Source: a virus. From it: a stretch of 26,920 nt of DNA. Where the stretch lies: the IMG/VR virus record IMGVR_UViG_3300021197_001383, positions 1-26,920 of that record. The stretch is one strand, 5' to 3'. How positions within the stretch are numbered: the stretch's first letter is position 1; the number at the start of each line of letters is the position of its first letter. Position numbers and translations under genes: made by a program. Below, piece by piece: positions 480-14,789 of this stretch. Under the pieces are notes generated by a model. It was not told the origin of the DNA. It saw only the letters and a list, made by a program, of their open reading frames with translations, and did no database searches.

Positions 480-1232
480 TTATCCTACCATGAAATCTGG
501 TGGTAACTCGTACTTGAGTTGAACTTCTTCTTCTATCTTTGTAATTTCTTCTTGTCCTTGAGAGTATAACTCTGCGCCATTGTATGAAAGACCACCGGGA
601 AGTGTGATGTTCTGGAACTTGGATAAGTTCATTCCCCATTGTCTTTTAATTAGTGATGTGACATACTCTTTCAGAAGTCTATCATTATAGATTTCGGTGT
701 ATGTGTCTGGATCTAATATAGAGTATGCTTCGATTACGACAAAATCACCAACAGTAAATTGTTCAGACCAGTCAGTATCGATCAGTAGTTTATTTGTTAC
801 TCTAGAAAATCGAACTGCCTTTTCTGGATCTAGCATCTGTTGAATAAGTGCTAGGTGTCTCTTTGTGATATCATACTGTGCCATGTTTCCCATACCAGTA
901 CGCACCCCATAGAAATCGTTGAGTGCCATCTGATACCGGACATCAAACATGTTCACACTGTTGTTTCCCTGTTCGAATATTCTCGTTACAGTAATAACAG
1001 AGGAATCGACTTGATTCATATCGATATATTCGTTTGTGATATCATCTGCTGTTAACTCATGCTTATAGAATTGTTTCTGCACACCATCAAAATGGTATTC
1101 TGCAAAGAATTGTAGTGCATCATCGAGTCTATCTTCTACCTGTGAATCATCAACATTGATCTCGATCACAGGATCCCCGAGTCTCCTCAGAGCATAGTCC
1201 TTCAGTTGTTGTCTCGTTGCTGGTTGTGCCAT
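480..1232 (-). CDS. 13: Neck protein gp13
   Basis: This encodes 250 aa, somewhat shorter than T4 gp13 (about 309 aa). In T4, gp13 and gp14 complete the head neck before the tail joins. The N-terminus has the family signature: a TRQQLKDYALRRLGDPVIEI block, then VDDSQVEDRLDDALQFFAEY and HFDGVQKQFYKHELT, which I recognise in T4 gp13 and its marine homologues. The rest (MFDVRYQMALNDFYG, then a C-terminal KYELPPDFMVG) is soluble, with no signal peptide or membrane segment. The start has a strong AGGAG Shine-Dalgarno about 8 nt upstream and follows immediately on the TAG of the small frame at 1233-1330. gp14 follows one base after the stop. Confidence 0.92.
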   Translation of the reverse strand: MAQPATRQQLKDYALRRLGDPVIEINVDDSQVEDRLDDALQFFAEYHFDGVQKQFYKHELTADDITNEYIDMNQVDSSVITVTRIFEQGNNSVNMFDVRYQMALNDFYGVRTGMGNMAQYDITKRHLALIQQMLDPEKAVRFSRVTNKLLIDTDWSEQFTVGDFVVIEAYSILDPDTYTEIYNDRLLKEYVTSLIKRQWGMNLSKFQNITLPGGLSYNGAELYSQGQEEITKIEEEVQLKYELPPDFMVG

Positions 1233-1330
1233 CTAAAATGCTCCTCTTCTTTTTATATGTATGATTTCTAGTGCATTTTCTAATGGCAGTTCCTTCGCCG
1301 CCTCTTGGTTTTCTGAACTTTTTCGAACAT
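1233..1330 (-). pseudogene. Frameshifted 32-codon mini-gene filling the gap before gp13
   Basis: The 98-bp gap is not empty. An ATG (1328-1330) abuts the TAG of the upstream gene and starts MFEK, but its frame stops after 16 codons. One base back, in the -1 frame, a protein-like stretch runs SSENQEAAK then ELPLENALEIIHIKRRGAF. It stops at a TAG directly touching the gp13 ATG. If the A5 run at 1319-1323 held one more A, the whole gap would be a single 32-aa gene with zero spacing on both sides. This may be a homopolymer sequencing error, a real disabling deletion, or a -1 frameshift. It could instead be an extension of the upstream 106-aa protein, which has another A5 run (1334-1338) just before its stop. 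Function is unknown. The AGGAG for gp13 lies inside it. Confidence 0.5.
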
Positions 1331-1651
1331 CTATTTTTGTTTACCAAGGAAACTCCGTACCTTTCTGATCCTTTCTGACTCAATGCGGGCCTCGTCGTCA
1401 TAGATCTTTTTGTAATTTTTAAACTCGTTCAATCTCGAAATGAAACGATCCCCATCTTCCCAAGGCATAGGAAGGGGGATTATCGTGGAACCATTACTTC
1501 TGTAATGTTCTTGATTTTGAATATAGACTCTGGTTCTTTGATCGTGTGGTGGATCATAGTCCGGTTCTAGTTTTTTAAAAAGTTGAAAATCTATTTCTTC
1601 GTTGTTTATTATAACTCTGTTTTCATCTGCATTATGAATAAATCTGTTCAT
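1331..1651 (-). CDS. Hypothetical small structural-cluster protein, 106 aa
   Basis: I do not recognise this family. The 106-residue product is hydrophilic, with no signal peptide or membrane segment. It begins MNRFIHNADENRVIINNEEI, has a Pro-rich middle (IIPLPMPWEDGDRF) and ends in a charged, probably helical tail (EARIESERIRKVRSFLGKQK). Its ATG overlaps the stop of the 693-aa gene by one base (TAATG), so translation is probably coupled. It lies between the LamG-like protein and gp13, where T4 has wac, and so may be a neck or whisker accessory; this is position only. The stop lies just past an A5 run (1334-1338). A one-base slip there would extend the protein by 33 residues, ending just before the gp13 start. 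Confidence 0.75.
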   Translation of the reverse strand: MNRFIHNADENRVIINNEEIDFQLFKKLEPDYDPPHDQRTRVYIQNQEHYRSNGSTIIPLPMPWEDGDRFISRLNEFKNYKKIYDDEARIESERIRKVRSFLGKQK

Positions 1652-3747: not shown

Positions 3748-6700
3748 TTAATCAATGTTGGAAGGTTCTATGTTGGAAGAAGAATCTACCGCCCACTTTG
3801 TTGCAGAATTTGGTGTTACTGGATCTGTTGTTTGTTCTATCACACCTGTCTTATTTATAAGAGAACCGAATCTAGAAAGACCGTGTGCGATTGACATTCC
3901 AGAATAAATCTTCGGAACAGAAAGTATACTAGTAGCAGTTTCAGTCCCAGCATTGACTGTGCGTCCAATGAAGGAGATCGACTTAGTGCAGTTTACAACC
4001 GAATCATTAGTAGCAGAGAAGTTATAGTGTGCATTATCATATGCTTTAGCACTAGTTGCTGAAACATTTGAGTTCATATTAGCACTATATCCACCGCGTG
4101 TTCTGATTGCTGCACTTCTGCGTGCATTAATACTAGAGTTCATTGATGCGTAAAATCCTGCTCCTGCACATCCTCTTGCAAATGCATAGTCAACGTCTAA
4201 GTTAGAATTTTCTAGTGCCATGTATGCTTGGTTTCTTAGCAATGAAACATAAGATCTTTCTGCGTTAATTGAAGAATTATTATATGCTAAGAATCCGATA
4301 CCCATTGGATGATCCACAAATCGATACTGTGTAGTGTCTGGAACTACATCATCACAAGGTCTAGTGCATGTTCCTGCATTGTCTGTACCGGGTGGACATT
4401 CACAGTCACCGTCAGTGCAGTCACTGCATTGTACATACCCAACATCAATATTACCATTTGGACATATAGTTCCGGGTACATCATCTCCACATGAGGTGTT
4501 ATTGCAATAACATGGTTTATTATCATCACCGAAACAACCTCCTCCGGGACAGTTACAGCAGCAGTTGTCTCCGCCACAGTTTATTGGGAGTGTGCAATCC
4601 ACTTCGCAACATTCTGCTGGTTGTTCTCCGTTACATTCACAGGCCGTCGGATTCTCGCAACAGAAAGATTCTTCTTCGTCTACGCAAGCACATTGACACG
4701 CACCGCTAGTGTCACCGCACCCTGTACACCATTGACAGAAATCATCACCCCCACCCGGCGCACATTGTGCCAGGCACGGATCTTCTCTACATTCACATTC
4801 TTCCTGCGAACCACAACACGGTGGATCACCCTCACCACCCCATTCGGTGCATCCGTTCTGTTCACTACAGAAATAGTCTTCACATTTACAGCACCGGTCT
4901 TCGCCATTACATTGTTGAACAACGCAGGTGTTATCGTCTCCCGTTCCATCACCACCACATTGGGTAGAATTGCATCCACACAGGCCTGTGCAGGAGACCC
5001 CACCATCATCACCACCTTCACCACCTTCACCGGAACCACCGCCTTCGGTGCCACCTCCGGCGCCTTGTCCTCCTCCTCCTGCACCATCGCCTACCGTGTC
5101 GTCGCTACCACCACCGTCTTGGACACCACCATCATTAAAGTTTACTGGTCCATCTGCATCTAAATCATATCTATCCCCAATATAACCGGGAGGTATGCAA
5201 ACACCACCAGAAATATCTTGGTTGCTAGTACCACATGCCTCAACTGGTGTGTATGTGATTGGAAGACTTTCTTCTGGTAATACTCCTGCCCCAACTCCAT
5301 AAACCTGAGTACCACCAAGTGTAAGTATTCGTGGAGGTGGTACTTCGTTGCCAGAGTCATCTGGTGGTATTGTAGTTTCCTCACTGAACGGAGCAACTGC
5401 TCTCAAGTAAATTTGATTTCCTGTAGTGAACGGGTAATAGTTATATGCATCTCTAACCGAATCGGACATCTTGGTGTATGGTTTTAAGTATGAGTTCCAT
5501 ACAACTTGAACGTAAGACACTTGACCATTAGGTTGCACAAGTGATATTCTTTCACCTTGATTCAACGTGGAAATGGAGGTGCCTGGTTGATCCAAGTCAA
5601 TTGTTAGTGGACTGTAACCAGAAGAGGCAACAATACTATTTGTTGCCTTGACGGACGATGTTCCATTTGCAAGAACACCTGCAATATCACATCCAGTTAT
5701 TACTGAATGCTTTGCATAGATTGATGAGTTTTGTTCTGCAACCATACCAAAGGAACAGTCTGAAATTGCAACCCGGTCGGTGTGGATCACTGAGTCGGTG
5801 TGTGCTGCCATTCCCGCATAAAATCCACAGATGCCAATGTTAGTACATGCTTGGGAACCCAACGAAGAATTTTTATATACAAGAATTCCTTCTCCACCAG
5901 ATGCTGCCGGATTCATTTCATTGAAATGCTTATATCTGACATCACCTTGAAAAACTATATTACTAAGTGAAGACAGACTACTGTTTGGTTTTACAACCAG
6001 ACCCTTTAATGGTTTTCCGGGTCCAGATGCAGTTGATCTTCTGTATTTAAATACTGTCTTTATTATGGATGCCTCGATACGGTGATCGGATATAACAGTT
6101 CCGATTGTCGGATCGATTCCGCTGGTTGTTGTTGACCCATACTTACCCGTTGGATCTCCTGTTTCGTGTGATGCTTCTGACGGAGCATTTCTATATCCAC
6201 CAACATAGATACCATCATCAACTGAAAATGATCCATCATCCGCATTGATCTTTGAACCACCAAGTCGGTGTAAGAAATTTTTTCCTCTTGATCTAAAAGT
6301 AACTGTATTATCTGATGAATTTACTCCGATAATCTCAAAACACCCAAGAACATTAGTCCGGGCATCTCCGGTGGCACCAGTAATTCCTTCGGATGCAACT
6401 GATCCATCAACTTGTGATGGGTAGTATCCGGCATGAATGTTCGTTCTATCCCGAAGCATCATATAGTCACCTACTTCGATGCCAGTTGTACTTGGTGCAA
6501 CTGTTGACGTTGTTGGGAAAGAAGCAGTATCGGCCAACTTTACTGTAATTCTATTATCAACAAGAGAACCGTTACCATAACCATTATTGTTTTCAACTGC
6601 ATCATACTGATAGTTTGTAACTTCTTGTAGATAAAAACCCAACGGAGTTTCGCCAGCAATACTAATACCTTTATGACTTGTATTGTTTATTTGAATAGAC

Positions 6701-6933
6701 GTTGTAAGATCATACGTTCCCTTGAGACAACGAACAATGGCATGTCCTCTATCAGTAAAGAACATACGTTCAATATTATTCAACGCTCTACCGGGAGTGT
6801 AATATGGATTGGTTAAACTACCATCACCATCAATATCACTACCACTAGGTGAACAATAGAATGTAGTAACAGTGTCAATTACATTGACATTAAACCCACC
6901 CTGCGGAATTCTAATTGCACTTTGATCAGCCAT
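3748..6933 (-). CDS. Beta-helix tail adhesin/spike with large cysteine-rich insertion, 1061 aa
   Basis: This is probably a tail-fibre or spike protein. Residues about 27-95 (YCSPSGSDIDGDGSLTNPYY, then GRALNNIERMF and LKGTYDL) match the usual entry into pectate-lyase-like right-handed beta-helix proteins. Coil-like repeats of 21-24 residues with an NSS(I/L/V) turn occur at about 372-438 (AEQNSSIYAKHSVI, ANGTSSVKATNSIV) and again at about 874-986 (AYNNSSINAERSYV, SMNSSINARRSAAI). Between them lies an insert of about 430 residues. It contains a beta-rich part, a Gly/Asp-rich linker (about 597-647) and 46 cysteines in residues 648-860. A weak AGGAG lies upstream of the ATG. The protein ends NSATKWAVDSSSNIEPSNID. 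The fold is a pattern-based call and the receptor or enzymatic role is unknown. Confidence 0.85.
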   Translation of the reverse strand: MADQSAIRIPQGGFNVNVIDTVTTFYCSPSGSDIDGDGSLTNPYYTPGRALNNIERMFFTDRGHAIVRCLKGTYDLTTSIQINNTSHKGISIAGETPLGFYLQEVTNYQYDAVENNNGYGNGSLVDNRITVKLADTASFPTTSTVAPSTTGIEVGDYMMLRDRTNIHAGYYPSQVDGSVASEGITGATGDARTNVLGCFEIIGVNSSDNTVTFRSRGKNFLHRLGGSKINADDGSFSVDDGIYVGGYRNAPSEASHETGDPTGKYGSTTTSGIDPTIGTVISDHRIEASIIKTVFKYRRSTASGPGKPLKGLVVKPNSSLSSLSNIVFQGDVRYKHFNEMNPAASGGEGILVYKNSSLGSQACTNIGICGFYAGMAAHTDSVIHTDRVAISDCSFGMVAEQNSSIYAKHSVITGCDIAGVLANGTSSVKATNSIVASSGYSPLTIDLDQPGTSISTLNQGERISLVQPNGQVSYVQVVWNSYLKPYTKMSDSVRDAYNYYPFTTGNQIYLRAVAPFSEETTIPPDDSGNEVPPPRILTLGGTQVYGVGAGVLPEESLPITYTPVEACGTSNQDISGGVCIPPGYIGDRYDLDADGPVNFNDGGVQDGGGSDDTVGDGAGGGGQGAGGGTEGGGSGEGGEGGDDGGVSCTGLCGCNSTQCGGDGTGDDNTCVVQQCNGEDRCCKCEDYFCSEQNGCTEWGGEGDPPCCGSQEECECREDPCLAQCAPGGGDDFCQWCTGCGDTSGACQCACVDEEESFCCENPTACECNGEQPAECCEVDCTLPINCGGDNCCCNCPGGGCFGDDNKPCYCNNTSCGDDVPGTICPNGNIDVGYVQCSDCTDGDCECPPGTDNAGTCTRPCDDVVPDTTQYRFVDHPMGIGFLAYNNSSINAERSYVSLLRNQAYMALENSNLDVDYAFARGCAGAGFYASMNSSINARRSAAIRTRGGYSANMNSNVSATSAKAYDNAHYNFSATNDSVVNCTKSISFIGRTVNAGTETATSILSVPKIYSGMSIAHGLSRFGSLINKTGVIEQTTDPVTPNSATKWAVDSSSNIEPSNID
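3852..3859 (-). promoter_or_regulatory. T4-type late-promoter-like octamer (TATAAATA)
   Basis: The minus strand carries an exact TATAAATA, the T4 late-promoter core, inside the 3' end of the beta-helix gene and about 120 nt before the ATG of the 693-aa gene. A transcript from here would cover the 693-aa, 106-aa, gp13 and gp14 genes. An exact octamer is expected about once by chance in a window of this size and composition, so support is weak. Confidence 0.25.
4354..4992 (-). other. Cysteine-dense module within the beta-helix adhesin
   Basis: This segment encodes residues 648-860, with 46 Cys in 213 residues, interspersed with Gly, Asp, Glu and Asn. Spacing is dense: CC pairs, CxC, one CCC, and two copies of CC-x5-C-E-C (CCGSQEECEC and CCENPTACEC). 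A glycine-rich linker precedes it and the beta-helix coils resume about 14 residues after it. Such spacing is typical of disulfide knots or metal-binding clusters. I recognise no named family. The frame stays open and in register through the region, so it is not a degraded segment. Confidence 0.85.
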
Positions 6934-14600: not shown

Positions 14601-14789
14601 TTAGTTTTCCTCTTTGATTAAATCACGGAGCAGAGTTTTGAGATAATCTACCTCTTGCCTTAGATTATGTATGTCTTTTTTCTGCCTTCTTTTTTCCAAT
14701 GCTTCGTTCATCTTTGTTTTATTAACAAGAATCAAAGCACCAGTTTCTAAATCCCGTTCATAATTTTTATTGTCAGTTTTTGCTCTCAT
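14601..14789 (-). CDS. Small coiled-coil protein, 62 aa
   Basis: The product is highly charged. It starts MRAKTDNKNYERDLETGALI and ends in a likely coiled coil (about residues 28-60) with leucine/isoleucine heptads in KDIHNLRQEVDYLKTLLRDL. The ATG overlaps the stop of the 1751-aa gene (ATGA), which suggests coupling, and the fibre gene starts 3 nt after its TAA. Small genes of this kind are common at this spot in marine T4-like phages; I cannot assign a function. A fibre-assembly chaperone role, by analogy with T4 gp57A (also a small helical protein), is possible but purely inferential. The two tight junctions support it being a real gene. Confidence 0.8.
   Translation of the reverse strand: MRAKTDNKNYERDLETGALILVNKTKMNEALEKRRQKKDIHNLRQEVDYLKTLLRDLIKEEN

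Follow-up and report, generated by a model that had tools for sequence, protein, structure and literature searches.

The window analysed here, that is, the whole 26,920-base virus record, comes from a marine T4-like phage, and its major genes all lie on the minus strand: the right end holds the baseplate wedge genes, the middle those resembling tail-fibre genes, and the left gp13. The gp13 gene (480..1232, minus strand) encodes a 250-aa head-tail adaptor Ad2, or neck protein (phrog_211, 2.4e-40), and is preceded by a 106-aa open reading frame (1331..1651, minus strand) of no known family, which nine IMG/VR contigs (L081-L089) encode at 90-98% identity; together with the window itself (L090) these close relatives make up the window's clade. 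Adjacent genes in the window mostly abut or overlap, which makes the 98-nt gap before gp13 (minus strand, 1330-1233), the largest on the coding strand, conspicuous. The first-pass annotation had singled out this gap, and its reading of the letters holds: an ATG (1330-1328) adjoins the TAG (1333-1331) of the 106-aa frame, a TAG (1235-1233) adjoins the gp13 ATG (1232-1230), T5 runs (A5 on the minus strand) are present at 1319-1323 and 1334-1338, and the gap is open in the gp13 frame, ending in ELPLENALEIIHIKRRGAF before the stop. Its suspicion of a cryptic coding frame in the gap was also right, while the frame, start, stop, length and mechanism it proposed were wrong. Elsewhere in the window, a 62-aa open reading frame between large tail genes (14601-14789, minus strand) matches phrog_473 (virion structural protein, E 8e-7) and is a further small structural gene, and a 1061-aa open reading frame (3748-6933, minus strand), for which a PHROGs search returned no match, carries a long Cys/Gly-rich insert (CNSTQCGGDGTGDDNTC...) at about 4350-5250.

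The gap is very probably the middle of a real, unannotated small gene hidden in the third frame of the minus strand (sORF, 1150..1347), a reading to which we give a probability of roughly 0.85 on the basis of its conceptual translation, frame conservation, codon-position statistics and profile match. The sORF runs from a TTG start (1347-1345) to a TGA stop (1152-1150), comprises 65 codons (M/LVNKNRCSKKFRKPRGGEGTAIRKCTRNHTYKKKRSILDGTTSNETTTEGLCSEETRGSCDRDQC) and overlaps both neighbours, its start covering the last 17 nt of the 106-aa frame and its end sharing 83 nt with gp13 (codons 1-27). The TTG is the sole start common to the whole clade and the sole possible start in L089, and the Shine-Dalgarno sequence before it is weak and variable within the clade. 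An 83-aa version with an ATG start (1150-1401) was rejected, since in L089 a stop codon interrupts the frame between that ATG and the TTG.

Copies of the sORF occur in 55 viral contigs; all stand immediately ahead of gp13, and the genes upstream of them are many and different. These contigs comprise the window, its nine close relatives, 35 recovered by a DNA pattern scan, and a further 10, namely L002 from the first scan plus those added by profile scanning and by a second pattern. In all 35 pattern-scan contigs the element lies directly before gp13 with the same frame open, and throughout the 55 the frame remains open across the gp13 start and ends 32-86 nt inside gp13. Starts vary among lineages between ATG, GTG and TTG, one of which is present in frame in 38 of 39 distinct sequences. 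A single contig (L120) holds a broken copy with no in-frame start, which is either a pseudogene or an assembly error. Length differences are multiples of three (3 nt in L147 and L153, 12 nt in L002 and L170), and a profile built without the window's clade placed the window's sORF first among 742 segments (4e-13, with the next at 6e-4). The peptides share the core KP[KR]G...[RK]K..R[SN].TYK[RK]..RS, and a related peptide is encoded in the third frame upstream of gp13 in several of the more distant loci. The most conserved stretch (NTYKR..RS) coincides with a promoter-like motif, a hairpin and the gp13 Shine-Dalgarno sequence, so its conservation is confounded with theirs. Judging from these contigs, the sORF family occupies a constant place immediately ahead of gp13 within a single branch of environmental T4-like phages.

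In almost all lineages, no more than about 20 nt separate the sORF start from the stop of the gene before it; TAATG and TGATG are frequent junctions, and this arrangement is kept although the upstream genes differ. In L012, L016, L026, L092, L096, L106 and L148 the directly upstream genes differ greatly, from about 106 to 990 aa, while the sORF and gp13 remain joined. From such sequence comparisons, the junction upstream of the sORF and gp13 appears to be a module boundary at which fibre-like genes are exchanged. The overlapping form of the sORF is not present in L001, the contig with the closest gp13 of a different lineage (71%). This contig has a 21-codon open reading frame (MRINSYSRKQISPKYIRGNNN) about 90 nt upstream of gp13 and not overlapping it, whose ATG precedes the end of the upstream stop by 14 nt; the peptide is faintly like the start of the window's small protein, and the frame may be a short non-overlapping form of the sORF.

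Substitution patterns point to the third frame as the coding one. Of the 58 columns that vary between the sORF start and the gp13 ATG across six lineages, 37 fall at third positions of this frame (P=2e-6), as against 14 of 58 in the remaining frame and 7 of 58 in the gp13 frame, where the first-pass annotation had placed its gene and where the other 51 occupy positions 1 and 2. Synonymous changes in the third frame number 35 of 64, compared with a null mean of 17.6, and no null run was as high. Seven changes distinguish L026 from L092 ahead of the hairpin loop, and every one of them is synonymous in the sORF frame. The overlapped part of gp13 is in turn depleted of synonymous changes: the ratio of codons 2-24 to codons 29-100 is 0.27 in gp13 genes with the sORF and 0.82 in those without it (141 control pairs). 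This suppression has a combined P of 1.5e-11, from within-lineage pairs that are not independent of one another, and is individually significant in four of six lineages (W, A, B and D) and not in C and E; it fades gradually past codon 24. Taken together, these patterns argue with high confidence that the third frame is protein-coding and evolves under joint constraint with gp13, about 24 codons of which are read in two frames.

The predicted product is a basic protein of 65 aa with a pI of about 9.7 in the window and 9.7-11.7 across the family. It is probably disordered; an AlphaFold model (pLDDT 56.5, no secondary structure) was uninformative. Homology searches of phage records, Pfam, PHROGs, NCBIfam, PDB and genome contigs with the small protein returned no relative or structure. 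A Pfam importin-beta-binding match (E 0.002) was below the cut-off and probably reflects basic composition. Judged against PHROGs, Pfam and NCBIfam, the product is a new protein family, one that gene callers are likely to overlook given its small size, its overlap with the genes on both sides and its frequent TTG or GTG start. A role as a nucleic-acid- or virion-associated accessory of neck or late assembly is only a guess.

The same stretch is predicted to fold into an RNA hairpin (1227..1288, minus strand; -14.6 kcal/mol, z -4.46, with 0 of 200 shuffles as stable), in which UGCCAUU-AG-AAAAUGC pairs with GCAUUUU-A-GAUGGCA. The gp13 Shine-Dalgarno sequence, AGGAG (1241..1245, minus strand), is kept in all relatives and sits at the edge of the loop, and its last G is paired in the predicted stem together with the gp13 AUG. 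When gp13 leaders were folded, a hairpin was found in most lineages; a scan requiring a paired Shine-Dalgarno sequence misses the window's hairpin, which direct folding finds. Other lineages pair the Shine-Dalgarno sequence directly and with different arms (TCGCTCC/GGAGCGA, ATGCTCC/GGAGCAT, TCTCCTAA/TTAGGAGA and TATACTCT/GGAGTATA). Arms pair better with their own partner than with arms swapped between lineages (P=0.02), but the pairing itself is weak in L004, L005 and L148. Some other T4-like gp13 leaders likewise show arm pairing, and hairpins in gp13 leaders may be more widespread. In L020, which belongs to another lineage and lacks the sORF, the gp13 leader has a strong hairpin (CTTTGATAC/GTATCAAAG) around a TATAAAAG motif. 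An Rfam search gave no match. On these folding models, we put the chance that the hairpin controls gp13 at about even.

The hairpin loop contains a putative late promoter, TATAAAAA (1250..1257, minus strand), which resembles the T4 consensus TATAAATA and at which ACATATAA is conserved in the relatives. A T4-like start at this motif would place the Shine-Dalgarno sequence at the very 5' end of the transcript. A 128-kb relative has no further copies of the motif, and a genome-wide ATACATATAWRA late-promoter consensus was not found; TATAAAWA is no commoner than its reversed control, and CTAAATA is likewise not enriched. The late promoter described for cyanophages is NATAAATA (PMC2984593).

These elements raise the alternative that the region serves solely as the regulatory leader of gp13, made up of a late promoter, a hairpin sequestering the ribosome binding site and a Shine-Dalgarno sequence, with the open third frame as a by-product. 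The hairpin and loop motif are indeed predicted and partly conserved, and L004 keeps the ACATATAAAGGAAAAGGAGCG element despite a one-base length change that breaks the frame. However, the excess of variable columns at third positions remains when only the part upstream of the hairpin is counted (28 of 45, P=7e-5), start codons and in-frame length changes are conserved, and the synonymous suppression in gp13 extends far past the hairpin. We therefore consider this alternative improbable, and as the sole explanation it is strongly disfavoured.

A still smaller likelihood attaches to the reading in which the sORF sequence arises solely by extending the 106-aa protein at its C-terminus, through frameshifting at the A5 run of 1334-1338, where the first-pass annotation had also considered an extension of that protein. 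Slippage on this run could reach the sORF frame, and CAAAAATAG is unchanged in the window's clade. Against this, other lineages carry the sORF behind unrelated genes and with its own ATG, GTG or TTG, the ATG or GTG overlapping or adjoining the upstream stop, and in the window's clade the TTG is kept in all members, including the one that offers no other start.

The originally proposed 32-codon gene (1233..1330, minus strand), in the gp13 frame and broken by one base through a homopolymer sequencing error, recent decay to a pseudogene or a -1 frameshift, is scarcely credible: the window and its clade keep the frame open, and the gene's ATG and TAG adjoin the neighbouring genes in the window, but the extra base that would restore it occurs in none of the nine close relatives, all 10 clade contigs keep both the 98-nt spacer and an open third frame, and in other lineages the proposed frame is interrupted by stops. 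Neither an intact frame nor a conserved peptide was found in the relatives, and the start ATG, which reads ATT in L081, L082, L084 and L089, is absent from three of the clade's seven distinct sequences. Positions 1 and 2 of that frame take nearly all substitutions, also within the clade, where the nine variable spacer columns lie at position 2 (six) and position 1 (three); in the third frame the same columns lie at position 3 (six) and position 2 (three). Peptide conservation among relatives had been named beforehand as the comparison that could overturn the proposed frame, and its outcome went against that frame. The protein-like end of the frame (IHIKRRGAF) results from reading the conserved ACATATAAAA...AGGAGC element before gp13 out of frame, and the abutting TAG is an out-of-frame reading of [LI]-D in the real open reading frame. 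On these comparisons, the openness of the 32-codon frame is no more than chance, and its status as a gene is not supported. A protein-like look by eye can thus mislead on frame, and relatives settle the choice of frame quickly.

If the third-frame gene is real, as is very probable, its position suggests how it might be expressed together with gp13; we infer the start mechanism, the coupling and the promoter activity as follows. Given how close its start lies to the stop of the preceding gene in almost all lineages, translation of the sORF would most likely begin by coupling to that gene. In long read-through mRNAs the hairpin would hold the gp13 start codon paired in its stem, and because the hairpin lies inside the sORF, ribosomes translating the sORF would open it and so couple gp13 synthesis to that of the small protein. 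The late-promoter-like motif in the loop could in addition give rise to a short late transcript without the 5' arm, on which the hairpin is bypassed. We offer only tentatively the combined proposal that this stretch of about 100 nt both encodes a small basic protein and gates gp13 translation through an embedded hairpin and late promoter. Under such gating, early or read-through messages would yield gp13 only where ribosomes also translate the small gene, while late messages would start inside the hairpin and escape it.

The sORF represents a previously unannotated family of proteins, in strict linkage with the gp13 neck gene; the latter clearly belongs to the T4 gp13 neck protein/Ad2 family (phrog_211). 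In the isolates with the nearest gp13, the Pelagibacter phages Mosig and HTVC008M (45-47% identity), no small open reading frame is annotated before gp13, and Melnitz-3 has a 72-codon gene there that is annotated as tail fiber. As such genes are presented in surveys like that of Fremin et al. (2022), cited in PMC11323111, the sORF resembles the small overlapping phage genes missed by annotation in having fewer than 100 codons, in being found only through a comparative signal and in having no known function; what sets it apart is its overlap with the genes on either side and the dual coding that affects about 24 codons of a conserved neck gene.

The closest parallels to the leader are found in the T4 genes e, soc, 49 and I-TevI, in which the Shine-Dalgarno sequence and/or the AUG is sequestered on long transcripts, and the transcripts that start at late promoters lack the 5' arm (PMC3014915, PMC2988022). 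Similarly, the helix predicted here pairs the AUG and the edge of the Shine-Dalgarno sequence, and a TATAAA-type motif lies between the arms, such that a transcript starting from it would lack the 5' arm. In contrast to the T4 examples, the hairpin described here precedes gp13, its promoter is putative, and its 5' arm and loop lie inside a conserved overlapping coding frame. If the hairpin works as in T4, a known regulatory device would here be superimposed on a protein-coding frame.
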